Origin: an uncultured Bacteroidales bacterium
GTDB taxonomy: Bacteria > Bacteroidota > Bacteroidia > Bacteroidales > Bacteroidaceae
Direction: 5' to 3'
Length of the DNA: 64,000 nucleotides
Assembly: GCA_902778625.1 (NCBI GenBank)
Contig: CACYYM010000005.1
Span: forward strand, 124,001-188,000
Positions within the stretch are counted from its first letter, which is position 1. Each line of letters begins with the position of its first letter. The notes beneath the pieces were generated by a model. It was not told the origin of the DNA and did no database searches. It saw only the letters and a list, made by a program, of their open reading frames with translations. A program made the translations under genes and the position numbers. Below are positions 5,348 through 62,226 of this stretch, piece by piece.

Positions 5348-5406
5348 ACTTTGCTGTCGAAAACTTAAAGCAGAGAGGCAAGAAAGATAAAATTGTAAAT
5401 TGTAAA

Positions 5407-5457: not shown

Positions 5458-6657
5458 ATGGAGAAGCAAGTGAGTTTACCGGAGGAGTTTGTTCAGTTGA
5501 TGTGCGAACATTATGATGAGGCAACGGCTGATGCGCTCTTGGAGGCTTTGACGATGACCGAACCGGAAGTGTCCGTTCGCCTCAATCCCCGCAAATTCTC
5601 TGCCCAGGAGCTGCTCGCCTTTCGTCCTGACCTTGAGCGAGTTCCGTGGTGCCCCAATGCGTTCTACCTCCAGGGAAGGCCTGCTTTCACCTTCGACCCC
5701 TTGCTTCATGCCGGAGCCTATTACGTGCAAGAGGCTTCGTCGATGTTTGTGGCGGAGGTCTTGAAGCAGTTTGTGCCTCTCGACAAGCCTTTGGTTGCGC
5801 TCGATCTCTGTGCCGCTCCAGGTGGAAAAAGCACGCTTCTGCAAAGTCTTTTGCCGGATGGGTCGCTCCTTGTCAGCAACGAGCCGGTTGCCAAGCGAGC
5901 CCAAGTACTGGCGGAGAACATGCAGAAGTGGATGACGGGACAGCCCGAGACGGCTCCGACGAGCATTGTGACGCAGAATTATCCCTCGGACTTCGGGGCT
6001 CTCACAAATAGCGTGGATGTCCTCCTGACAGACGTTCCCTGTTCAGGCGAAGGGATGTTTCGCAAGGATGAGGACGCCAGAAAAGAGTGGAGCCTTGACA
6101 ATGTCTGGATGTGTCAGCAGCGACAACGGGACATCCTGCACGACATCTGGCACGTTCTCAAACCCGGTGGCCTGCTCATCTACAGTACTTGCACTTTCAA
6201 TCGCTATGAGGACGAAGACAATGTACGTTATTTTTGCGATGAAATGGGCGCTTTTTGCATCTTCGAGCGACATTTTCTGCCTGGTCGCGACCGCGGTGAA
6301 GGCTTCTATATTGCAGCTTTGAGAAAGGAAGATTCCCTCCCTGCTTACCCTCCAGGGGAGTGCCAAGATGCTATTGCTAAAGCGCGACGGACCCTTCGAC
6401 TGCTCTTCGACTCGGCCAATACTCCAGAGCCCGAAGGTCCTCGCATTGAGTTGAGTTATAGTGAAGCCCTGCAATACCTGCGTCGTGAAGCCCTTCGGGT
6501 AGAGGCTCCTCGCGGGCCAGTCACGCTTTGCTATCGTGGCTTGGTGCTCGGTCCGGGCAAAGGCGTCGGCTCTCGCATCAATAATCTCTACTCGGAGCAA
6601 TGGCGCATCCGAACCACTTATACAAAGCCTTTCTCCCTGCTCGGCATTGGGAATTGA
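5458..6657 (+). CDS. rsmF: 16S rRNA m5C methyltransferase, RsmF/NOL1-NOP2-Sun family
   Basis: A 399-residue SAM-dependent methyltransferase that makes 5-methylcytosine in rRNA, by family most likely 16S. Motif I, DLCAAPGGKST (116-126), binds SAM. The two cysteines of the mechanism are in PCSGEGM (194-200) and in the STCTFNRYEDEDNV segment (Cys 245). The C-terminal 130 residues resemble the PUA-like tail of RsmF. I chose the ATG at 5458 because the promoter ends at 5438; the in-frame ATG at 5446 would be nearly leaderless, and a TTG at 5428 lies inside the promoter. The gene is alone, between a divergent oxidoreductase and a long 22-bp array. Confidence 0.9.
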   Translation: MEKQVSLPEEFVQLMCEHYDEATADALLEALTMTEPEVSVRLNPRKFSAQELLAFRPDLERVPWCPNAFYLQGRPAFTFDPLLHAGAYYVQEASSMFVAEVLKQFVPLDKPLVALDLCAAPGGKSTLLQSLLPDGSLLVSNEPVAKRAQVLAENMQKWMTGQPETAPTSIVTQNYPSDFGALTNSVDVLLTDVPCSGEGMFRKDEDARKEWSLDNVWMCQQRQRDILHDIWHVLKPGGLLIYSTCTFNRYEDEDNVRYFCDEMGAFCIFERHFLPGRDRGEGFYIAALRKEDSLPAYPPGECQDAIAKARRTLRLLFDSANTPEPEGPRIELSYSEALQYLRREALRVEAPRGPVTLCYRGLVLGPGKGVGSRINNLYSEQWRIRTTYTKPFSLLGIGN

Positions 6658-6666
6658 CGCTTTTCC

Positions 6667-6824
6667 CGTGGTGTGTTGCCAAACTCAGCGTGCCGTGTTG
6701 CCAAACTCGGCGTGCCGTGTTGCCAAACTCAGCGTGCCGTGTTCGTTATAGATACATGTATGTATAATTAAATGTACATGTATGTATAATTGTAGATACA
6801 TGTATCTATAACGAACTTAACGTG
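6667..6824. repeat. 22-bp dyad array, 8 units of mixed flavour, with 74-bp palindrome
   Basis: Cores of the form C(G/A)TG begin at 6667, 6689, 6711, 6733, 6755, 6777, 6799 and 6821, every step exactly 22 bp. The first four are CGTG units with CCAAACTC spacers; the next three are CATG cores in ATACATGTAT context; the last is CGTG followed by CGGCGTTTTG. The CATG part is a 74-bp near-perfect palindrome (6742-6815) bounded by TTCGTTATA and its reverse complement. A second copy lies at 15448-15521. The array starts 10 bp after the rsmF stop. The rest of this 389-base gap (6825-6983) shows nothing recognisable before the next promoter. Confidence 0.92.
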
Positions 6825-6983
6825 CGGCGTTTTGAAAGCCCTCGTGTCGAAACAAGTAATGTCACGTTTTGAAGCACCTCCGCCCTTGCTTCGTGAAACG
6901 GCTCCAAGCGTGTGGTAATTGGCCTTGTGCAGGGGCGACTGAAGTTGTTTCTCCATGTTTAAGCACATTTTTTTCTCGCTTTC

Positions 6984-8112: not shown

Positions 8113-9222
8113 ATGAGCAATAAGATAGCGCTAATAACGGGCGTTACAGGACAGGACGGCTCGTACCTGAGCGAGTTTCTTCTCGAGAAAGGTTACGAGG
8201 TGCACGGCATTATCCGTCGCTCCTCTGTTGACTTCCGTGAACGTATCGCCCATCTGGAAGGACAACCACACTTCCATCTGCATTACGCCGACATGGGCGA
8301 CTCGATGTCCCTCGTCAAGCTTGTCGGTTTAGTACAACCTACTGAGATATATAACCTGGCTGCCCAAAGTCACGTACAGGTCAGCTTCGACGCGCCAGAA
8401 TTCACGGCCGATGTGGATGCCGTGGGCGTGCTTCGTGTCCTAGAAGCCGTGCGAACCAATCATCTGGAGAATACTTGCAAAGTCTATCAGGCATCTACTT
8501 CCGAACTTTATGGCAAGGTGGAAGAAGTCCCGCAGAACGAGAACACGCCCTTCCATCCCTATAGCCCTTACGCCGTTGCCAAGCTTTATGGCTTCTGGAT
8601 CGTCAAGGAATATCGTGAAGCGTACGGCATGTTCTGCTGCTCTGGCATTCTCTTCAACCACGAGAGCGAGCGCAGAGGCGAGACTTTCGTGACCCGTAAG
8701 ATTACCCTTGCCGCAGCTCGTATCGCCCAAGGCAAGCAAGAGAAACTCTTCTTGGGGAACCTCGACAGCCTTCGCGACTGGGGCTATGCCAAGGATTATG
8801 TGGAGTGCATGTGGCTCATCCTGCAGCACGAAACGCCTGAAGACTTTGTAATTGCCACAGGTGTGCAGCACTCGGTTCGCGAGTTCACAGACCTCGCCTT
8901 CCGTCACGTCGGCATAGAGTTGAAGTTCGAAGGCAAAGGCATCAACGAGAAAGGCATTTGCGTGAAAGGTCCTGAGCAACTGATCGGCAAGACGTTGGTC
9001 GAGGTGAGCGAAGACTTCTATCGTCCCACCGACGTCGTCAACCTTTGGGGTGACCCGACGAAGGCAAAGGCAAAGCTCGGTTGGAACCCTAACAAGACCA
9101 CTTTCGAGCAGTTAGTAAAGCTCATGGTGGAGCACGATATGGCCAAGGTCGCTGCCGAAGGTGCTGCAGCTAAAGTAAGGACAAACCTCGCAGAATACCT
9201 CGAGAAGGGCGTAGTAAAATAA
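8113..9222 (+). CDS. gmd: GDP-mannose 4,6-dehydratase
   Basis: A 369-residue short-chain dehydrogenase/reductase that converts GDP-mannose to GDP-4-keto-6-deoxymannose with bound NADP. The cofactor loop is GVTGQDG (10-16); the catalytic STSELYGKV segment supplies the Thr/Glu pair, and YAVAK the Tyr/Lys pair. The ATG at 8113, one base after the manC stop, fits the family N terminus ([13 protein letters not shown]). The frame is open upstream through manC, but that part has no counterpart in Gmd. Its stop overlaps the fcl start (TAATG), suggesting translational coupling. Confidence 0.96.
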
Positions 9223-10163
9223 TGGAAAAGAGTTCAAAGATTTATGTCGCAGGCCACAGAGGCATGGTCGGCTCTGCTATAGTCAGGGAGCTGCAGCGGC
9301 AGGGATACACCAATATCATAACACGAACGCATAAGGAACTCGACTTGACCAGGCAAGATGCCGTCGAGAAGTTCTTTGCCGAAGAGAAGCCCGAGTACGT
9401 CTTCCTCGCCGCAGCTAAGGTGGGAGGCATCGTAGCCAACCAAAGTGCTTTGGCAGACTTCATGTACGACAACATGATACTTGAGATGAACGTCATTCAT
9501 GCTGCTTGGCAGAACGGGTGCAAGAAGCTGGAATTCCTTGGGAGTTCCTGCATCTATCCGCGTATGGCGCCGCAGCCCATGACGGAAAGCTGCTTGCTGA
9601 CTGGCGAGTTGGAGAAGACAAATGAAGCGTATGCCTTGGCGAAGATTAGCGGCCTCAAGTATTGCGAGTTCCTGAACCGCCAGTACGGCACCGACTACAT
9701 CAGCGTGATGCCAACGAACTTGTATGGCCCTAATGACAACTATCATCCCGAGCATAGCCACGTTTTGCCGGCATTGATACGCCGTTTCCACGAAGCAAAG
9801 GTAGCAGGACTTGAATCCGTTACCTGTTGGGGCGATGGTAGTCCGCTCCGAGAGTTCCTTTACGTGGATGACTTGGCGAACCTCTGTGTCTTCCTGATGA
9901 ACAACTACTCGGGCAATGAAACCGTTAATGCAGGAACAGGTAAAGAGCTAACCATTAAGGCACTCACAGAGTTGGTGGCAAAGGTCATCGGCTACAAGGG
10001 CAGGATAGAGTGGGACACCACCCGTCCGAACGGTACACCGCGCAAACTGCTCGACGTAAGCAAAGCCGCAGCACTCGGATGGACTTATAAAACTGAGCTG
10101 GAAGATGGCATTCGCCTAAGCTATGAAGACTTCCTGAATAATCCGATGCGTGCAGAAAGATAA
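9222..10163 (+). CDS. fcl: GDP-L-fucose synthase
   Basis: A 313-residue bifunctional epimerase/reductase, the last step to GDP-L-fucose. The N-terminal Rossmann motif is GHRGMVGSAIV. The SSCIYPRMAPQPM segment holds the catalytic Ser/Cys region, and YALAKISG gives the YxxxK pair. It overlaps the gmd stop by one base. A GH10 xylanase follows after 30 bp and may share the transcript, though its function is unrelated. Confidence 0.95.
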   Translation: MEKSSKIYVAGHRGMVGSAIVRELQRQGYTNIITRTHKELDLTRQDAVEKFFAEEKPEYVFLAAAKVGGIVANQSALADFMYDNMILEMNVIHAAWQNGCKKLEFLGSSCIYPRMAPQPMTESCLLTGELEKTNEAYALAKISGLKYCEFLNRQYGTDYISVMPTNLYGPNDNYHPEHSHVLPALIRRFHEAKVAGLESVTCWGDGSPLREFLYVDDLANLCVFLMNNYSGNETVNAGTGKELTIKALTELVAKVIGYKGRIEWDTTRPNGTPRKLLDVSKAAALGWTYKTELEDGIRLSYEDFLNNPMRAER

Positions 10164-11836: not shown

Positions 11837-11849
11837 CAGCGCAAATGGT

Positions 11850-12032
11850 GATATCCGAGGACCTCGTAACCCCGTTTGGGGAAGTGAGGGACGAGGGTAG
11901 AGAGGGAATCCGGTGCAAGGCCGGAGCAGTGCCCGCTACTGTATTTGCCTTATTGGTGCAGCGCACACAACGTCACTGGGACAGCTTCCTGGGAAGACGC
12001 GCTGCCGGGCAAGAGCCAGGAAACCTGCCGTT
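11850..12032 (+). promoter_or_regulatory. Cobalamin (adenosylcobalamin-class) riboswitch
   Basis: The conserved aptamer core is readable: GGGAATCCGGTGCAAGGCC then GGAGCAGTGCCCGCTACTG (11905-11941), the CACTGGG arm (11973-11979), GGGAAGACGCG (11990-12000), and the B12 box AGCCAGGAAACCTGCCG (12014-12030). The order and wording match the family closely. It sits between a promoter and a BtuB-type receptor gene, so bound cobalamin should shut down expression. The first 55 bases contain an extra hairpin (CGAGGACCTCG and CCCCGTTTGGGG). Confidence 0.96.
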
Positions 12033-12083
12033 TCGCAAGAACATAACATGTGTCCTCGGGACAAGGGCGACGTAATAATAATG

Positions 12084-14156: not shown

Positions 14157-15445
14157 AACGACTCTTTACAATCCTCTGCTTTACATTATATATATATAAC
14201 GCGTGCGCGCAAGAGCGGATTATTCTCCTCAACGAAGGCATGTGGCAAGCAGACAACGGCAAGATCTCCTACTTTGAGGGCGGCTCGATTATCAGCAATC
14301 AGTGGTTCCGCGACAAGAACGGCTACAAGATTGGCGACACGCCGAACGACATCATACAGGTCAACGAAAACCTCATCGCCATCGCCGTCAACTGGTCGAA
14401 CATTGTGCAGTTCATCCGACCTGACGGCACTGCAGTTGCTGCCACAGAGGACATTCCCAACAATCGCAGGCTATGCAGTGACGGCTCATACGTCTATGTG
14501 ACGAGCTACGGACACGAGTGCGAGACCATCTACGGCACAGTATATTTCGACAGAGGCTTCGTCGCGAAGATAGACCTGAGCAGTTTCAAGGTCGTTGCCA
14601 CCTGCGAGGTCGGCTACGAACCTGAGGGCATAGCGCTCTACGACGGACGCCTCTTTATCGCCAACACCGGCGGATATGCTGAACAGGAGGGCGATCACGA
14701 GTTCGAGACGACAGTGAGCGTCGTCAATGCCGCCACGATGACTTTGGAGAAGAACATCGACACGGGCATTCCCAACCTGTTTGGCGAGATGTCGCAGAGC
14801 GGGCGATACCTGTGCATCAACTCGCCTGGAGACTACTACGAGGTGCCCCCTTGTGGCCTAATCTTCGATTGCAAGAGGGCGCTGCAGGGCGAGCCGTGCT
14901 TCGTCGTCTTCAATTATCCTGCCACTTACAGCACGAAGACTCGCGACGGACACTTCCTCGCAATCGGTTCCGCATTCAGCTACATCACCGGAGAATACAC
15001 GTTCTCTTACCTCACCATCGAGCCTTGGACGTTCATCCGGACAGGTGGTACGAGCGGACTCAGCATGTCGCTACCAGGTAATATGCTCGCCGACATCATG
15101 AACATGGCACAGCCTTATGGCATTTACGTCAATCCATACTCGGGCTACATCTACGGCACCGACGCCGGTTCCTTCGAGGGAGCAGGCTATCTCTACCAGT
15201 GGTCGCCCGAAGGTCAACTGCTTGGCACACACAAAGTTTACATTAATCCCGGGCACTTCCTCGCTTTGCCGCCATACGATTGGGCAAGTGGCATCGAAAC
15301 AAATCACAAATCACAAATCACAATAAAAAATGACGTTTACGACCTTCAAGGACGTCGAATCGACAACCTCCACCAAAGGAAAAAGGGAACTATATACGTC
15401 GAGAATGGCAAGAAGACACTCTGCAATACTCAACCCCGCAAGTGA
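14153..15445 (+). CDS. btuG: BtuG-like beta-propeller surface protein
   Basis: A 430-residue secreted protein of the YncE/DUF5074 propeller type. BtuG of gut Bacteroides is a seven-bladed propeller that binds vitamin B12 extremely tightly and sits on BtuB; coupling to btuB (4-bp overlap) under a cobalamin riboswitch makes that role likely. Seen here: signal peptide (1-19), repeated propeller segments (GYEPEGIALYDGRLFIANTG; YGIYVNPYSGYIYGTDAGS), and a C-terminal tail (NDVYDLQGRRI...YVENGKK) of the sorting-signal type common in Prevotella. The only early cysteine (NACAQ, residue 18) is a poor lipobox, so lipidation is uncertain; BtuG itself is a lipoprotein. Confidence 0.82.
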   Translation: MKRLFTILCFTLYIYNACAQERIILLNEGMWQADNGKISYFEGGSIISNQWFRDKNGYKIGDTPNDIIQVNENLIAIAVNWSNIVQFIRPDGTAVAATEDIPNNRRLCSDGSYVYVTSYGHECETIYGTVYFDRGFVAKIDLSSFKVVATCEVGYEPEGIALYDGRLFIANTGGYAEQEGDHEFETTVSVVNAATMTLEKNIDTGIPNLFGEMSQSGRYLCINSPGDYYEVPPCGLIFDCKRALQGEPCFVVFNYPATYSTKTRDGHFLAIGSAFSYITGEYTFSYLTIEPWTFIRTGGTSGLSMSLPGNMLADIMNMAQPYGIYVNPYSGYIYGTDAGSFEGAGYLYQWSPEGQLLGTHKVYINPGHFLALPPYDWASGIETNHKSQITIKNDVYDLQGRRIDNLHQRKKGTIYVENGKKTLCNTQPRK

Positions 15446-15447
15446 GG

Positions 15448-15552
15448 TTCGTTATACATACATGTATCTATAATTATACATACATGTACATTTAATTATA
15501 GATACATGTATGTATAACGAACTCAACACGCCAAGTTGAGCAACACGGCACG
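15448..15552. repeat. 22-bp dyad array, 5 units, AT-rich palindrome plus CACG units
   Basis: CATG cores at 15461, 15483 and 15505, then CACG cores at 15527 and 15549, all 22 bp apart. The first three form a 74-bp palindrome (15448-15521) that is about 70/74 identical to the reverse complement of the one at 6742-6815. It starts 3 bp after the btuG stop. The remaining 77 bases to the next gene show no clear promoter. Confidence 0.9.
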
Positions 15553-26998: not shown

Positions 26999-27061
26999 GT
27001 CTTTTTGGCCTCGTTACATCTATAAGACCATCGAGCTGCGAAATCAAATACCCCTAATCGC

Positions 27062-27152
27062 AAAAAAAACGCCGCGTGCGGCGATTGCAATCCCCGCGTG
27101 CGGCGTTGCTGGTTTCCGCGTGCGGCGTTTGCGATCCCCGCGTGCGGCGTTT
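27062..27152. repeat. 22-bp dyad array, 4 GC-rich units, with leftward terminator
   Basis: CCGCGTGCGG cores at 27072, 27094, 27116 and 27138, exactly 22 bp apart, with GATTGCAATC, TTGCTGG and TTTGCGATC spacers. The array begins 4 bp past the stop of the leftward oxidoreductase. Read leftward, the last unit is CGCCG-CACG-CGGCG followed by eight Ts (27083-27062), a usable intrinsic terminator. Confidence 0.92.
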
Positions 27153-27156
27153 TTTC

Positions 27157-34348: not shown

Positions 34349-34417
34349 TCAAGGCACGAATAAATGGGTACAATACAAAAGAAAAACAAGTTTTCCGTGC
34401 TCTTCTTGGAAGGATAC

Positions 34418-34602
34418 TGTGGTGTGTCGGCAAACTCGGCGTGCTAAGTTGTCAAACTCAACGTGTTAAAATGGTCAACTTAACGTGCTGAAAAAATTTT
34501 TTAGCGTGGTGCAATTTCAAACGCCGCCTGCGGAGATGTAAAACGCCGCGTGCGGCGATGGCAATCCCCGCGTGCGGAAATGGCAATCCCCGCGTGCGGC
34601 GT
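34418..34602. repeat. 22-bp dyad array, 8-9 units, CGTG/CAAACT units running into GC-rich units
   Basis: Cores at 34440, 34462 and 34484 (CGTG), 34505 (CGTG, one base short), then 34527 (CCTG), 34549, 34571 and 34593 (CGTG of CCGCGTGCGG). A weaker TGTG lies at 34418. The CAAACT-type and GC-rich families thus share one uninterrupted 22-bp phase. The array fills most of the 378-base gap between two leftward genes and ends 5 bp before the stop of the transglycosylase gene. The rest of the gap holds the promoter and inverted repeat listed above. Confidence 0.92.
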
Positions 34603-34606
34603 TTTG

Positions 34607-42207: not shown

Positions 42208-42387
42208 CCTGCCAAATTGCCAACTTTACCTTGCAAAAATGCCCCATTTCACCGCAGAAAATGACTTTTTTCACCTGAGAAAATCGCAATTTTCACGTGT
42301 TAAGTTTGCAAACTTCACGTGTTAACTTTACAAACTCGACGTGTCGAGTTGCCAAACACACCCTGTTAAGTCCCCCAATTCGATCTG
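42208..42387. repeat. 22-bp dyad array, about 9 units, in a divergent gap
   Basis: Cores at 42208 (CCTG), 42230 (CTTG), 42252 (CCGC), 42274 (CCTG), 42296, 42318 and 42340 (CGTG), 42362 (CCTG) and 42384 (TCTG), all 22 bp apart. The best units are 42296-42345: TTAAGTTTGCAAACTT is a near-palindrome centred exactly 11 bp after a CGTG core, and CTCGAC-GT-GTCGAG has 6-bp arms. The outer units are decayed. This is the only array not next to a gene end; it lies in the 697-base gap between the divergent ntpD and flippase genes. The rest of the gap (41916-42207) shows no gene or clear signal. Confidence 0.85.
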
Positions 42388-48055: not shown

Positions 48056-48850
48056 ATGAAACACATTATCTATACTATTGCAGCTCTCTTCTTCTTTGCT
48101 ATATCAGTAAATGCACAGGAGGATTCTTGGGAAAAATGGGGACCAACAAAAGGTCTGAAAAGCGGCGGATTCATTGCCCGCGCAGGTTATGTCATCGGTG
48201 GTACAACGCCGCTTCCACTGCCTGCCGAGGTCAGAAAGATTAATGGCTTCAGGCCGAGAGGCGGCGTCAGCTTGGGCATCGACGGTTACCGCATGTTTTC
48301 GAAGCGATGGGGCATCAGCGCAGGAGCTCACTTCTTCTGGGAAGGCTTCCATACGGATGCTGACGTAAAGAATTACTACGTTTGGCTCGAGCAGGAAGGC
48401 GAAATTACAAAAGGCTATTTCACGGGCACCAACGTCACCAACACCGAGATGTGGGGCGTAACGCTTCCTTTGCTAGCCACCTTCCGCATGAGTCCAAGAT
48501 GGAATGTCAGCGCAGGTCCTTACTTGAGTCTTTACTTCGATCAAACGTTCTCGGGCGAGGTCTATGACAACAGCGAAGGCATCGGTTACCTCCGCGAGGA
48601 CAAGCCGACGGGCACTAAGATACTCATGTCGCGCGAGAATCCAACACCTTATCCCGACAATTTCCCCGAGAAGATGCAGCCTGTAGCAGTCGGCATAGAG
48701 ATTGCTTTCGACTGGAAAGCGATGAAGCACCTGAACGTGTTCGGATTGCTCGACTGGGGTATGACCGACATCTGGGATCGCAACTTCGAAGCCATCACTT
48801 TCAAGATGTATCCCATTTACGCTACATTGGGCGTCGCCTACAGGTATTAA
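48056..48850 (+). CDS. Outer-membrane beta-barrel protein (PorT-like)
   Basis: A 264-residue protein with signal peptide (1-20, ISVNAQ) and alternating amphipathic strands ending in Tyr (TLGVAYRY), the hallmark of a small outer-membrane barrel. It is coupled to the PCMD lipoprotein gene and may anchor or export it. A 22-bp array starts within 10 bp of the stop. Confidence 0.82.
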   Translation: MKHIIYTIAALFFFAISVNAQEDSWEKWGPTKGLKSGGFIARAGYVIGGTTPLPLPAEVRKINGFRPRGGVSLGIDGYRMFSKRWGISAGAHFFWEGFHTDADVKNYYVWLEQEGEITKGYFTGTNVTNTEMWGVTLPLLATFRMSPRWNVSAGPYLSLYFDQTFSGEVYDNSEGIGYLREDKPTGTKILMSRENPTPYPDNFPEKMQPVAVGIEIAFDWKAMKHLNVFGLLDWGMTDIWDRNFEAITFKMYPIYATLGVAYRY

Positions 48851-48952
48851 AAAAACGCCGCGTAGGGAGATTTCAAACGCCGCGTGCGGCGATGACCATT
48901 TCCGCGTGCGGGGATTGCAATCTCCGCACGCGGCGTTTTTTACCCCCCTGCG
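48851..48952. repeat. 22-bp dyad array, 4 GC-rich units
   Basis: Cores at 48858 (degenerate CCGCGTAGGG), 48880, 48902 and 48924, exactly 22 bp apart; a looser CCCC-CTGC-GGGG hairpin follows near 48945. The outer ends pair with each other (AAAAAACGCCGCGT and ACGCGGCGTTTTTT), so the transcript could fold into one long hairpin ending in Ts. It fills the gap between two convergent genes. Confidence 0.92.
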
Positions 48953-48965
48953 GGGCGATTTTCTT

Positions 48966-54002: not shown

Positions 54003-54029
54003 TTATCAGCCCGTTAGCAAATGTTAAAA

Positions 54030-54113
54030 TCCCCGCGTGCGGCGATGGCAATCCCCGCGTGCGGCGTTTGCAATTTCCGCGTGCGGCGTTTGCAATCTCC
54101 GCGTGCGGCGTTT
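54030..54113. repeat. 22-bp dyad array, 4 GC-rich units
   Basis: CCGCGTGCGG cores at 54033, 54055, 54077 and 54099, exactly 22 bp apart, all in the GT orientation. It starts 28 bp after the lptD stop and ends 28 bp before the stop of the leftward engB gene. Confidence 0.93.
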
Positions 54114-54140
54114 GGATTTCCTGTCTTCCGAAAGGGGGAA

Positions 54141-56198: not shown

Positions 56199-58055
56199 AT
56201 GGATAAAAACACAGTTACAGGATTTATTCTCATTGCCCTCGTTATCATCGGCTTCACTTGGTACAGTCAGCCGAGTAAGGAAGAACTTGAAGCGATGTCA
56301 AAGCAAGACAGTATTGCTGCCGTAGAACACGAGAAACAAGCAGAAGCAAAGGAAGCAGAGGCAAAAGTGGTTGCTGCAACTCCGGCAACTCCTGACAGCA
56401 GTTCGCTTTTCTTCTCTCAAATCGGTGGCGAAGAGCAGCGTATAGTCTTACAAAATAATAAGGTAAAGGTAGGCATCAACAGCAAAGGAGCTGTGGTGGA
56501 GGATGCCGAGATTATCGGTTACAAGAGCCGCCGAAGGGATGGAGATGTGCTGATTCTCGGCAAGGAGGACGCTTCGATGAAGCTCACATTACCTCTCAAG
56601 CAGGAGAACATCTGCTTTGCCGACCTTTGCTTCAACGTTACAGAGCAGACCGACTCGAGCGTCATCTTTGTTGCTGAGCAGGAAGGAAAGCAGTTGCAGG
56701 TCAGCTATAAACTTCGTCCGGAATCTTACATGCTTGACATGGACATTGCTTGCGAAGGCATGGAAGGTTTGTCGATGCCTGGCGCAAGTAACTTGCTCAT
56801 CGAATGGAAAGCGCGAATTCCTCAGCAAGAAAAAGGCAGAGACTTCGAGAATCGTTACAGTTCGCTCACCTACAAGAGACAAGGAAAAGGCGTAAAGAAG
56901 CTTAGTGAAATGAAGGACGATAGCAAGGAGCCCGAAGAAGCTCTCGAGTGGGTTGCCTTCAAGAATCAGTTCTTCAGCGCCGTTCTTATCGGAAGTCAGC
57001 CGATGACTCAGGCTTCGCTTGCGACTGAGCAAGTTCAAGACGAGGAAGGTTACCTGAAGCATTACGAGGCTTCGCTGCAAGTGCCGTTCGATGCTACAGG
57101 CAAGGACGCTACGCATCTGCAGATGTATCTCGGTCCCAATGACTTCCACATTCTCAAGGCACACAGCAAGATGACGGCTTACGGCTCGAAAGCCGACCTC
57201 GACGAACTCGTTTACTTGGGCTGGTGGATATTTCGTTTCATCAATCGTTGGTCGATACTTTACATCTTCGATTGGCTCAAAGCGTTCGGTTTGCCAATGG
57301 GCATCGTCCTTTTGCTCTTGACAATCATCATCAAGGTACTCGTCTTCCCAACACAAAAGAAGAGCTATTTGAGTAGCGCCAAGATGCGTGTCCTCAAGCC
57401 GAAGCTTGACGAGCTGAACAAGCAGTACCCAAATCCTGACCAAGCTATGCAGAAGCAACAGGCCATGATGCAGATGTACAGCCAGTACGGCGTCAGTCCT
57501 ATGGGCGGTTGCTTGCCGATGCTCATACAGATGCCTATCTGGATAGCGATGTTCAACTTCATTCCAAATGCCATTGACCTTCGCGGAGAGAGTTTCCTTT
57601 GGGCAGACGACCTCAGCGCTTACGACGATGTAATCCGCTGGGGGAAAAGCATTTGGCTCATCGGCAATCACTTGAGCATCTTCTGCTTATTGTTTAGCTT
57701 GACCAACATTGTCAACACTTGGATATCGATGCGACAGCAGCAGAACCAGTTCTCAGGCGAACAAGCGCAGCAGATGAAGATGATGCAATGGATGATGTAT
57801 CTGATGCCCTTGATGTTCTTCTTCTGGTTCAACAACTACTCGAGCGGTTTGAGCTACTTCTACTTCATTTCGGGCTTGCTCAACATCATCACGATGTGGT
57901 ACCTCAGATGGAAGACCGACGACAAGAAGTTGCTTGCAGGACTTGAAGCTTATCGCGAGCAACACAAGAACGACCCCAAGAAAGCGTCTGGCCTTCAAGC
58001 ACGCCTCGAGGCTCTACAGAAGATGCAACAGGAACAAGCAAGGAAAGGCAGATAA
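56199..58055 (+). CDS. yidC: Membrane protein insertase YidC
   Basis: A 618-residue insertase: N-terminal transmembrane helix (TGFILIALVIIGFTWYS), a Lys/Glu/Ala linker, a periplasmic beta-supersandwich domain (about 80-340), and the conserved 60-kDa inner-membrane-protein core with five helices (about 355-585, including FPTQKKSYLSSAKMRVLKPK and PMGGCLPMLIQMPIWIAMF). The Lys/Arg-rich C terminus is typical. It inserts and folds inner-membrane proteins with or without Sec. A 22-bp array begins 6 bp after the stop. Confidence 0.96.
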   Translation: MDKNTVTGFILIALVIIGFTWYSQPSKEELEAMSKQDSIAAVEHEKQAEAKEAEAKVVAATPATPDSSSLFFSQIGGEEQRIVLQNNKVKVGINSKGAVVEDAEIIGYKSRRRDGDVLILGKEDASMKLTLPLKQENICFADLCFNVTEQTDSSVIFVAEQEGKQLQVSYKLRPESYMLDMDIACEGMEGLSMPGASNLLIEWKARIPQQEKGRDFENRYSSLTYKRQGKGVKKLSEMKDDSKEPEEALEWVAFKNQFFSAVLIGSQPMTQASLATEQVQDEEGYLKHYEASLQVPFDATGKDATHLQMYLGPNDFHILKAHSKMTAYGSKADLDELVYLGWWIFRFINRWSILYIFDWLKAFGLPMGIVLLLLTIIIKVLVFPTQKKSYLSSAKMRVLKPKLDELNKQYPNPDQAMQKQQAMMQMYSQYGVSPMGGCLPMLIQMPIWIAMFNFIPNAIDLRGESFLWADDLSAYDDVIRWGKSIWLIGNHLSIFCLLFSLTNIVNTWISMRQQQNQFSGEQAQQMKMMQWMMYLMPLMFFFWFNNYSSGLSYFYFISGLLNIITMWYLRWKTDDKKLLAGLEAYREQHKNDPKKASGLQARLEALQKMQQEQARKGR

Positions 58056-58141
58056 AAATCTCCGCACGCGGCGATGGCAATCTCCGCACGCGGCGATGGC
58101 AATCCCCGCACGCGGCGTTTCAATCCCCGCACGCGGCGTTT
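58056..58141. repeat. 22-bp dyad array, 4 GC-rich units
   Basis: CCGCACGCGG cores at 58062, 58084, 58106 and 58127 (steps 22, 22, 21), all in the AC orientation. It lies between yidC and the S9 peptidase gene in the same direction, so it could attenuate transcription between them; no promoter is visible after it. Confidence 0.92.
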
Positions 58142-60412: not shown

Positions 60413-61972
60413 ATGACACAAGCAATTCAAAAGACTTTACGCGACAGTGCTGGAATGCGCTGGACGGCGTTGCTGCTCTTGGCGCTTGCCATGTTCTGCA
60501 GCTACATCTTCATGGACATCCTTTCTCCCATTAAGGACCTGATGCAAGAAACAAGGGGATGGGACAGTACGGCCTTCGGAACGATGCAAGGCTCCGAGGT
60601 GTTCCTCAATGTTTTTGCTTTCTTCCTCATCTTCGCAGGCATCATTCTCGACAAGATGGGCGTGCGTTTCACGATGGTTCTTTCTGCCGTTGTGATGCTC
60701 GTTGGTGCCTGCATCAAGTGGTACGCCGTGGATGAATCTTTCATGGGAAGTGGCTTGGAGGCATGGTTCACCAATCATTTGAACTACATTCCTGTGTTCG
60801 AGGAACTCGGTGTTTCTCCTTTCTATGAAGGCATGCCAGCCTCTGCGAAGTTTGCTGCCTGCGGTTTCATGATATTTGGCTGTGGCGTGGAGATGGCCGG
60901 CATTACCGTAAGTCGCGGTATCGTCAAGTGGTTTAAGGGCAGAGAAATGGCTTTGGCAATGGGTTCGGAGATGGCTTTGGCCCGTCTTGGCGTGGCAACC
61001 TGCATGATCTTCTCGCCCTTCTTCGCCCGCTTGGGCGGTCAAGTCAGCGTTTCTCGCTCGGTTGCTTTTGGCGTGGTGCTGATGTGCATTGCCCTCATTA
61101 TGAGCATTGTTTACTTCTTTATGGATAGGAAACTCGACGCGCAGACTGGTGAAGCCGAGGAGAAGGACGACCCCTTCAAGATCAGCGACTTGGGACAAAT
61201 CCTCACTTCGAGTGGTTTCTGGCTTGTTGCCCTGCTTTGCGTGCTTTACTACAGCGCAATCTTCCCCTTCCAGAAGTACGCCGTGAACATGCTGCAATGC
61301 AACCTCACACTTGTAGCGCCCGATGCTAATTCCTTCTGGGCAAAGCCCGATGTCACCATCGTTCAGTACCTCATCATGCTCTTTGTTGCGGCAACTGGTT
61401 TTGCAAGCAACTTCCAGAAGAAAGCCGGAGCGAAGTACGGCTTGCTTTGCGTCAGCATCCTCGCCCTCGTTACCTATTGCTACATGGGTTACATGAGGCA
61501 GTCTGCCGAGAGTATCTTCGCGGTCTTCCCACTTCTGGCCGTGCTCATCACACCTATCTTGGGCAGTTATGTTGACCACAAAGGCAAGGCAGCCACGATG
61601 CTGATACTCGGCTCGTTGCTCCTCATCTTCTGCCATCTTACCTTTGCCTTCGTGTTGCCTTTGTTCAAGGGCTCAGCCATCGGAGGCATCGCGATAGCCT
61701 ACATCACCATTCTTGTGCTGGGTTCAAGCTTCTCGCTCGTGCCCGCAAGCCTTTGGCCAAGTGTGCCTAAACTGGTGGATGCCAAGGTTATAGGCTCTGC
61801 TTATGCGCTCATCTTCTGGATTCAGAACATAGGTCTTTGGCTCTTCCCACTGCTTATCGGCAAGGTTTTGGACAAGACAAATCCTGGCGTTACCGACCCG
61901 ACTCAGGGTTTCGTCCTGAAGGTCGTTGACAAGAAGAAAGGTCTGGGCCTCGAGGAGCCGAACATCAAGTAA
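60413..61972 (+). CDS. MFS transporter
   Basis: A 519-residue major-facilitator protein with 12 predicted transmembrane helices and a larger soluble loop after helix 3 (about 108-140). N-terminal segment IFMDILSPIKDLMQETRGWDSTAFGTMQG resembles the Bacteroidetes nitrate/hexose-phosphate-like MFS group that commonly follows yidC-S9 peptidase. Given the S9 peptidase upstream (43 bp), a peptide or amino acid substrate is possible but not shown by sequence. Confidence 0.88.
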   Translation: MTQAIQKTLRDSAGMRWTALLLLALAMFCSYIFMDILSPIKDLMQETRGWDSTAFGTMQGSEVFLNVFAFFLIFAGIILDKMGVRFTMVLSAVVMLVGACIKWYAVDESFMGSGLEAWFTNHLNYIPVFEELGVSPFYEGMPASAKFAACGFMIFGCGVEMAGITVSRGIVKWFKGREMALAMGSEMALARLGVATCMIFSPFFARLGGQVSVSRSVAFGVVLMCIALIMSIVYFFMDRKLDAQTGEAEEKDDPFKISDLGQILTSSGFWLVALLCVLYYSAIFPFQKYAVNMLQCNLTLVAPDANSFWAKPDVTIVQYLIMLFVAATGFASNFQKKAGAKYGLLCVSILALVTYCYMGYMRQSAESIFAVFPLLAVLITPILGSYVDHKGKAATMLILGSLLLIFCHLTFAFVLPLFKGSAIGGIAIAYITILVLGSSFSLVPASLWPSVPKLVDAKVIGSAYALIFWIQNIGLWLFPLLIGKVLDKTNPGVTDPTQGFVLKVVDKKKGLGLEEPNIK

Positions 61973-62031
61973 GGAAGACTCATTTCCTAAGCCTCTGATT
62001 TTCAGGCGGCGAGCCTCGCTGGAAAAGATGG

Positions 62032-62123
62032 CACGTTAAGATGCCAAACTTAACGTGCCATCTTTGCAAACTTAACGTGTTAAATTGACCAACTTAACGT
62101 GCCGAGTTGAGAGACTCGGCACG
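62032..62123. repeat. 22-bp dyad array, 5 units of TTAACGTG type
   Basis: CACG at 62032, CGTG at 62054, 62076 and 62098, CACG at 62120: exactly 22 bp apart. Spacers contain CCAAACTTAA or CAAACTTAA, with TTAAC-GT-GTTAA a clean dyad. A weak first unit may lie at 62010. It starts about 60 bp after the MFS stop. The rest of the 294-base gap up to 62267 holds the terminator and promoter listed here. Confidence 0.9.
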
Positions 62124-62132
62124 CTTTGTTTT
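62098..62132 (+). terminator. Intrinsic terminator built from the last array unit
   Basis: CGTGCCGAGT (62098-62107), loop TGAGAG, ACTCGGCACG (62114-62123), then CTTTGTTTTTTATT. The two stem ends coincide with two array cores 22 bp apart. Confidence 0.9.
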
Positions 62133-62196
62133 TTATTGTCCCGCGTCAAGTCAAATGAAAAGGCACGCGTTTTTGTTTTTTTTCCTAAATAAAAAG

Positions 62197-62226
62197 TTGG
62201 ATGTTATCATTTTCTTTGTATCTTTG
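62197..62226 (+). promoter_or_regulatory. Bacteroidetes-type promoter for the terminal surface-protein gene
   Basis: TTG at 62197-62199, a 19-bp spacer and TATCTTTG at 62219-62226. Confidence 0.8.

Follow-up and report, generated by a model that had tools for sequence, protein, structure and literature searches.

The array at 62027-62135, like its relatives in the 64,000-nucleotide stretch from an uncultured Bacteroidales bacterium analysed here (the window), is built on a CGTG core that recurs in 22-bp phase; this phased core, and not a terminator, is the invariant of the arrays. The bacterium, of a gut type, carries hundreds of these short sets of near-palindromes. Such arrays tend to mark the ends of transcription units, since they are placed flush with the 3' ends of genes and a TAnnTTTG motif often lies downstream of them. 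An unvarying period without directionality points mainly to a two-way boundary role in DNA rather than to ordinary terminators. The best explanation, still a tentative one, is that they are two-way boundary elements at transcription-unit ends that would act mainly as DNA, with one phased dimer-binding site per unit; the protein, the block it would form and any effect on transcription are putative. What the sequence itself shows is the phase, the core, the placement at unit ends, the symmetry, the absent RNA-level signature and the replacement of one unit family by another at orthologous gaps.

Phase, core and ends of the arrays

Successive cores of the array at 62027-62135 (no strand assigned; T-tract included) are exactly 22 bp apart, at 62032 (CACG), 62054, 62076, 62098 (CGTG) and 62120 (CACG). 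The terminal pair of units lies head to head and folds on the + strand (62098-62123) as CGTGCCGAGTT-GAGA-GACTCGGCACG, a stem of 11 pairs, one of them G-U, with a GAGA loop. Both ends of the stem are array cores, and the T-rich tail CTTTGTTTTTT (62124-62134, + strand) follows directly on its 3' side. The minimum free energy of 62090-62135 is -20.8 kcal/mol, whereas 200 shuffles averaged -8.1 and none was as good (z = -5.25), and 62098-62134 has the G+C-rich hairpin and immediately adjoining T-tract of a Rho-independent terminator. The design given in the preliminary description, a stem with array cores at its ends and a T-rich run behind it, therefore holds, and only its length of 10 bp has to be corrected. 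A second stem in the same array, absent from that description, is formed by the inverted units 1 and 2 (62027-62062, no strand assigned) and has 13-14 bp, an 8-nt loop and no T-run. Upstream lies the gene for an MFS transporter of 519 aa (60413-61972, + strand), which ends at 61972, and the next gene (start at about 62267) is preceded by a TAnnTTTG-type promoter motif, TATCTTTG (62219-62226, + strand).

In intergenic DNA, 22 bp is the dominant tandem period. At least three CACG, CGTG or CATG cores stand in 22-bp phase in 101 of 112 arrays, as against 0-1 at other periods of 17-25 bp, and exact AACGTG pairs number 227 genome-wide at a spacing of 22 bp and 2 at the control spacing of 24 bp; because of these two results, the 22-bp spacing is beyond chance. 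Several unit families have this phase in common: A (CGCCG-CGTG-CGGCG), B (AACTTAA-CGTG-TTAAGTT), C (TTATACATA-CATG-TATGTATAA) and D (AAATCCA-CGTG-TGGATTT). Mixed arrays maintain one phase across families, as in the B-C-B hybrid at 6657-6825 (no strand assigned), located 3' of a stop codon. In most arrays the units all have one orientation, and flips occur chiefly at the ends: the terminal unit is inverted at 52 of 168 junctions and internal units at 11 of 108 (p = 6e-5). T-runs are also commoner at ends with an inverted terminal unit (46/76 versus 85/220, p = 0.001). Because terminal inversions are both more frequent and tied to T-runs, the site at 62098-62134 is an example of a recurrent end design.

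The array statistics come from sampled stretches, about 860 kb in total, of the 3.08-Mb assembly that contains the window. Genes were called with an in-house caller, terminators were scored with our own scripts, and all genomes are draft assemblies. Loci L029-L092 had been selected by the type-A pattern and some stretches (L009-L028) around type-B hits; array placement was the same in unselected stretches as in selected ones.

The persistence of one phase despite different arms argues for the boundary explanation, although tandem duplication alone would give a similar phase within any single array. In this explanation, a putative DNA-binding protein would bind as one dimer to each 22-bp unit, whose near-palindromic arms flank a CGTG-type core. 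Since 22 bp is about two helical turns, the constant phase would place all dimers on the same side of the helix, where they could act as a cooperative block or as a topological insulator that separates neighbouring transcription units in both directions. An inverted unit with a short A/T tract is often present at the outer ends, which would make a minority of arrays, including 62098-62134, bidirectional intrinsic terminators as well. Points against the proposal include the still hypothetical status of the binding protein and arms that differ so much between families that a single sequence-specific protein would read little beyond the core.

Position relative to genes and promoters

Among gaps of at least 60 bp in the sampled ~860 kb, arrays occupy 32 of 58 convergent (55%), 67 of 202 tandem (33%) and 16 of 70 divergent gaps (23%; p = 5e-4). 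The preliminary description had named an even distribution between 5' and 3' gaps as an outcome that would refute its reading; in this sample the distribution is not even, arrays being enriched 3' of genes. It had also correctly placed nine of ten window arrays 3' of a gene, the exception being the B/D-type array in the divergent gap at 42213-42379. Type-A arrays occur in convergent gaps at 1431-1536, 48850-48963 and 54004-54138 (the last filling the whole gap) and immediately 3' of a stop codon at 58055-58138. A type-C array (TTATACATACATGTATGTATAA-like) at 15445-15533 and a type-B array followed by a type-A array at 34416-34606 likewise lie 3' of stop codons; none of these arrays was assigned a strand.

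Between 46 and 51% of tandem-gap arrays begin no more than 30 bp past the stop codon. Placement nulls in which up to 150 bp before starts was excluded gave about 14%, so the idea that promoter avoidance fully accounts for the 3' bias was rejected. Near stop codons in tandem gaps, arrays are typically followed by a new promoter: the last 100 bp before the next start contain the TAnnTTTG motif in 28 of 37 long tandem gaps with arrays and in 5 of 24 without (p = 5e-5). Both the flush placement and the association with a downstream promoter motif support the boundary explanation; the 16 divergent gaps that also hold arrays do not.

That occupancy is highest between convergent genes and that arrays sit at unit ends would likewise be expected of topological sites comparable to E. 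coli BIMEs: by binding gyrase or nucleoid proteins, such sites might relax supercoils where genes converge or follow one another. In E. coli, BIMEs are bound by gyrase and IHF, and Rho-dependent termination is favoured by REPs (PMC2817692); chromosome organisation and transcription termination are among the roles proposed for REP/BIME sequences (PMC2817692, PMC3733652). BIME units alternate in orientation, whereas most arrays here are uniform, and we regard a BIME-like role as very improbable.

Terminator-like ends and RNA-level signals

The preliminary description suggested transcription termination or 3'-end protection as one possible function; the corresponding account, with tandem intrinsic terminators or 3'-end-protecting hairpins acting in RNA, we consider doubtful. 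The strong stem and T-run at 62098-62134, the flush 3' placement and the tie between terminal inversion and T-runs all speak for it, as does the better folding of arrays compared with shuffles (mean z -3.25). An array-borne hairpin followed by a T-run was found at 21 of 64 convergent and 14 of 41 promoter-followed tandem gene ends, or roughly one in three gene ends with an array. These real terminator-like ends weigh against a pure boundary role, yet most arrays have none. In type-A arrays, T-runs accompany 42-51% of ends but 3% of internal units, and in G025, where the unit sequence is different, 12 of 12 arrays have at least one T-run end. The four-unit type-A array at 27060-27156 (no strand assigned) is bounded by A8 and T6 tracts. 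Read leftward, the distal end of its 27062-27152 portion is CGCCG-CACG-CGGCG-T8, as the preliminary description stated, and A/T tracts flank both sides. The array does begin about 4 bp past the leftward gene's stop codon, whereas the T8 lies about 90 nt past that stop, not directly behind it.

None of these features is aligned with transcription. Runs of five or more Ts were found at 16 distal and 19 proximal ends of 107. Most arrays have no distal T-run, and T-runs also occur at the ends of family-A arrays located in divergent gaps. Hairpin-plus-T sites in tandem-gap arrays showed no strand preference (35 sense, 40 antisense), converging inverted ends were no more frequent distally (9) than proximally (14), and core orientation was independent of gene strand (57 versus 42 arrays). 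A gene-oriented design was thus ruled out for core orientation, T-runs and terminal inverted pairs. The missing directional signal, the lack of a distal T-run in most arrays and the arrays in divergent gaps all argue against terminators acting in RNA, as does the fact that termination needs neither a fixed 22-bp phase nor a core. The same absence of gene-related orientation, and of end or strand preference in T-runs and hairpins, favors boundary arrays.

Independent terminator-like sites are fewer beside arrays, at 18 of 64 convergent gene ends with arrays and 31 of 52 without, which favors a boundary role for arrays in convergent gaps and also speaks for the terminator reading. Per length of free sequence, 39 such sites were found in 7.6 kb with arrays and 54 in 5.9 kb without (pooled p = 0.006), a scarcity per kb that was not significant in this genome alone (p = 0.21).

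If RNA hairpins were under selection, G-U pairs should exceed A-C mismatches on the sense strand, and one would expect covarying arms as well as more stable folding of that strand. Arm mismatches comprised 141 G-T and 151 A-C (p = 0.60), without a G-U excess. In families A and B, swapped arms paired about as well as native ones, with no clear covariation within units; in a small mixed remainder, native arms paired better than swapped ones. Of 132 arrays, 60 folded more stably on the sense strand (p = 0.24), which gives no consistent sense-strand stability; only G000 leaned antisense (p = 0.04), and G027 (n = 15) leaned sense (p = 0.02). Arm swapping, mismatch counts and strand-specific folding thus gave no consistent support for RNA-level constraint. 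Because the G-U excess, covariation, sense-strand stability and gene-linked core orientation are all missing, the evidence favors a DNA-level element, with the qualification that a two-way terminator would be symmetric too. Judged from sequence, 62098-62134 and a minority of arrays could terminate transcription, yet this capacity is not the defining trait of the arrays, and the terminator or 3'-protection reading is partly supported.

A search of the window against Rfam at the gathering score gave no match to the arrays; its only match was a cobalamin riboswitch (RF00174, 79.8 bits) at 11847-12046.

Relatives and known repeat systems

The repeat of the window is also present in named public metagenome-assembled genomes of Bacteroidaceae, Prevotellaceae or Bacteroidales, those from goat and yak among them. 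Many relatives in the same genus have 22-bp palindromic arrays of different sequence, and some other genera of the family have either AACGTG pairs in phase or tandem palindromes repeated at about 22 bp. Several array-rich species reach densities of about 100-170 arrays per Mb. G000, G027 and G120 are array-rich, whereas G004 and G031, of the same genus as the window, hold few arrays. Comparison of orthologous gaps between this genome and its relatives gave 19 gap pairs with arrays in both; some co-occurrence would arise by chance, since arrays occupy about half of the convergent gaps. The family differs in about six of these: B here is replaced by A in L080 or L062, A here by another family in L058, and D here by a GGGACGCGTCCC family in L136. 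The 22-bp period is retained despite the change of family, and the persistence of the period with other sequences in relatives, like the presence of different families in orthologous gaps, supports the boundary explanation. At two convergent gaps (L100/L057 and L020/L178), an array in one species corresponds to an ordinary bidirectional terminator in the other, which favors the terminator account; L077, a second relative for the L100/L057 gap, has both. A broader proposal, that these arrays form a class of boundary elements in which the 22-bp helical phase and the dyad are conserved but the sequence is not, a phased-dimer filament at transcription-unit ends insulating in both directions while the core changes between species, is possible but somewhat doubtful.

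Type-C elements consist of three 22-bp CATG units, often with the ends GTTCGTTATA...TATAACGAAC, and are near-identical at many sites (window 6746-6811 and 15452-15517; L018 5791-5857; L025 13893-13959; L026 18391-18539). They sometimes sit in phase inside other arrays, and the element looks like a small dispersed repeat. Different three-unit CATG elements with the same architecture occur in G035 (L158, L170 and L136; TTGCACATACATGTATATTCAA and TTGCAGGTTCATGAATATTCAA).

The near-identical ends of type-C elements, together with high copy number, lineage-specific families and gain or loss between relatives, would fit selfish or nearly neutral palindromic repeats of the REP or MITE kind, copied and then tolerated just after genes, where they do least harm. 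We consider this origin unlikely, since copying alone leaves a constant period with changing sequence, and the family swaps, unexplained; in addition, a clean target duplication was not seen. A RAYT-type (Y1) transposase (PF01797) was not found in the assembly, which is 89% complete, in a search whose positive controls matched, and membership in the RAYT/REP system was rejected on this basis. No GTAG or CGTC tag was constant at unit edges on reading of the units and their consensus. Enterobacterial REP/BIME sequences share with the arrays a high copy number, short extragenic palindromes and clustering mostly near gene ends, but the arrays consist of strictly phased 22-bp units around a 4-bp core, mostly in one orientation, and they change sequence between species while the period stays constant.

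Among other systems, the BrickBuilt repeats of Porphyromonas gingivalis are 23-nt intergenic tandem repeats, 10 of 19 of which lie near predicted Rho-independent terminators (PMC4596501). They resemble the arrays in order, intergenic location and repeat length, but by their description have a long leader and tail, terminal inverted repeats and 19 copies, as opposed to 3-5 bare units and more than 100 copies per Mb. In another family of the order, L192 carries 23-bp palindromic tandem arrays with a ACAAGCTTGT core (8231-8298 and 9647-9736), hinting at a wider Bacteroidales theme that is perhaps linked to BrickBuilt. Rho-independent terminators share the stem-loop and T-tract just 3' of a transcription unit seen at 62098-62134, whereas array ends are symmetric and undirected, mostly lack the T-tract and have in addition a fixed period and core. 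The TAACTGA direct repeats of Beggiatoaceae and some Bacteroidetes are heptamers mostly just upstream of start codons (PMC4679880); they too have a short conserved core in intergenic repeat sets, but the arrays are palindromic and lie mostly 3' of stop codons.

The open-licence literature searched contained no account of palindrome arrays phased at 22 bp in Bacteroidales. If arrays of constant period but freely varying sequence do separate transcription units, they would constitute an abundant layer of genome organisation in gut and rumen Bacteroidaceae, undescribed as far as that literature goes, and the orthologous swaps, of one array family for another or of array for terminator, would make their function directly testable. 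Apart from the 22-bp arrays, a second strong intergenic tandem period of 7 bp (also 14 and 21) is present in the window and in relatives of the genus, with TTGTAAA/TTATCTA-like runs at 5390 and 50473 as examples.
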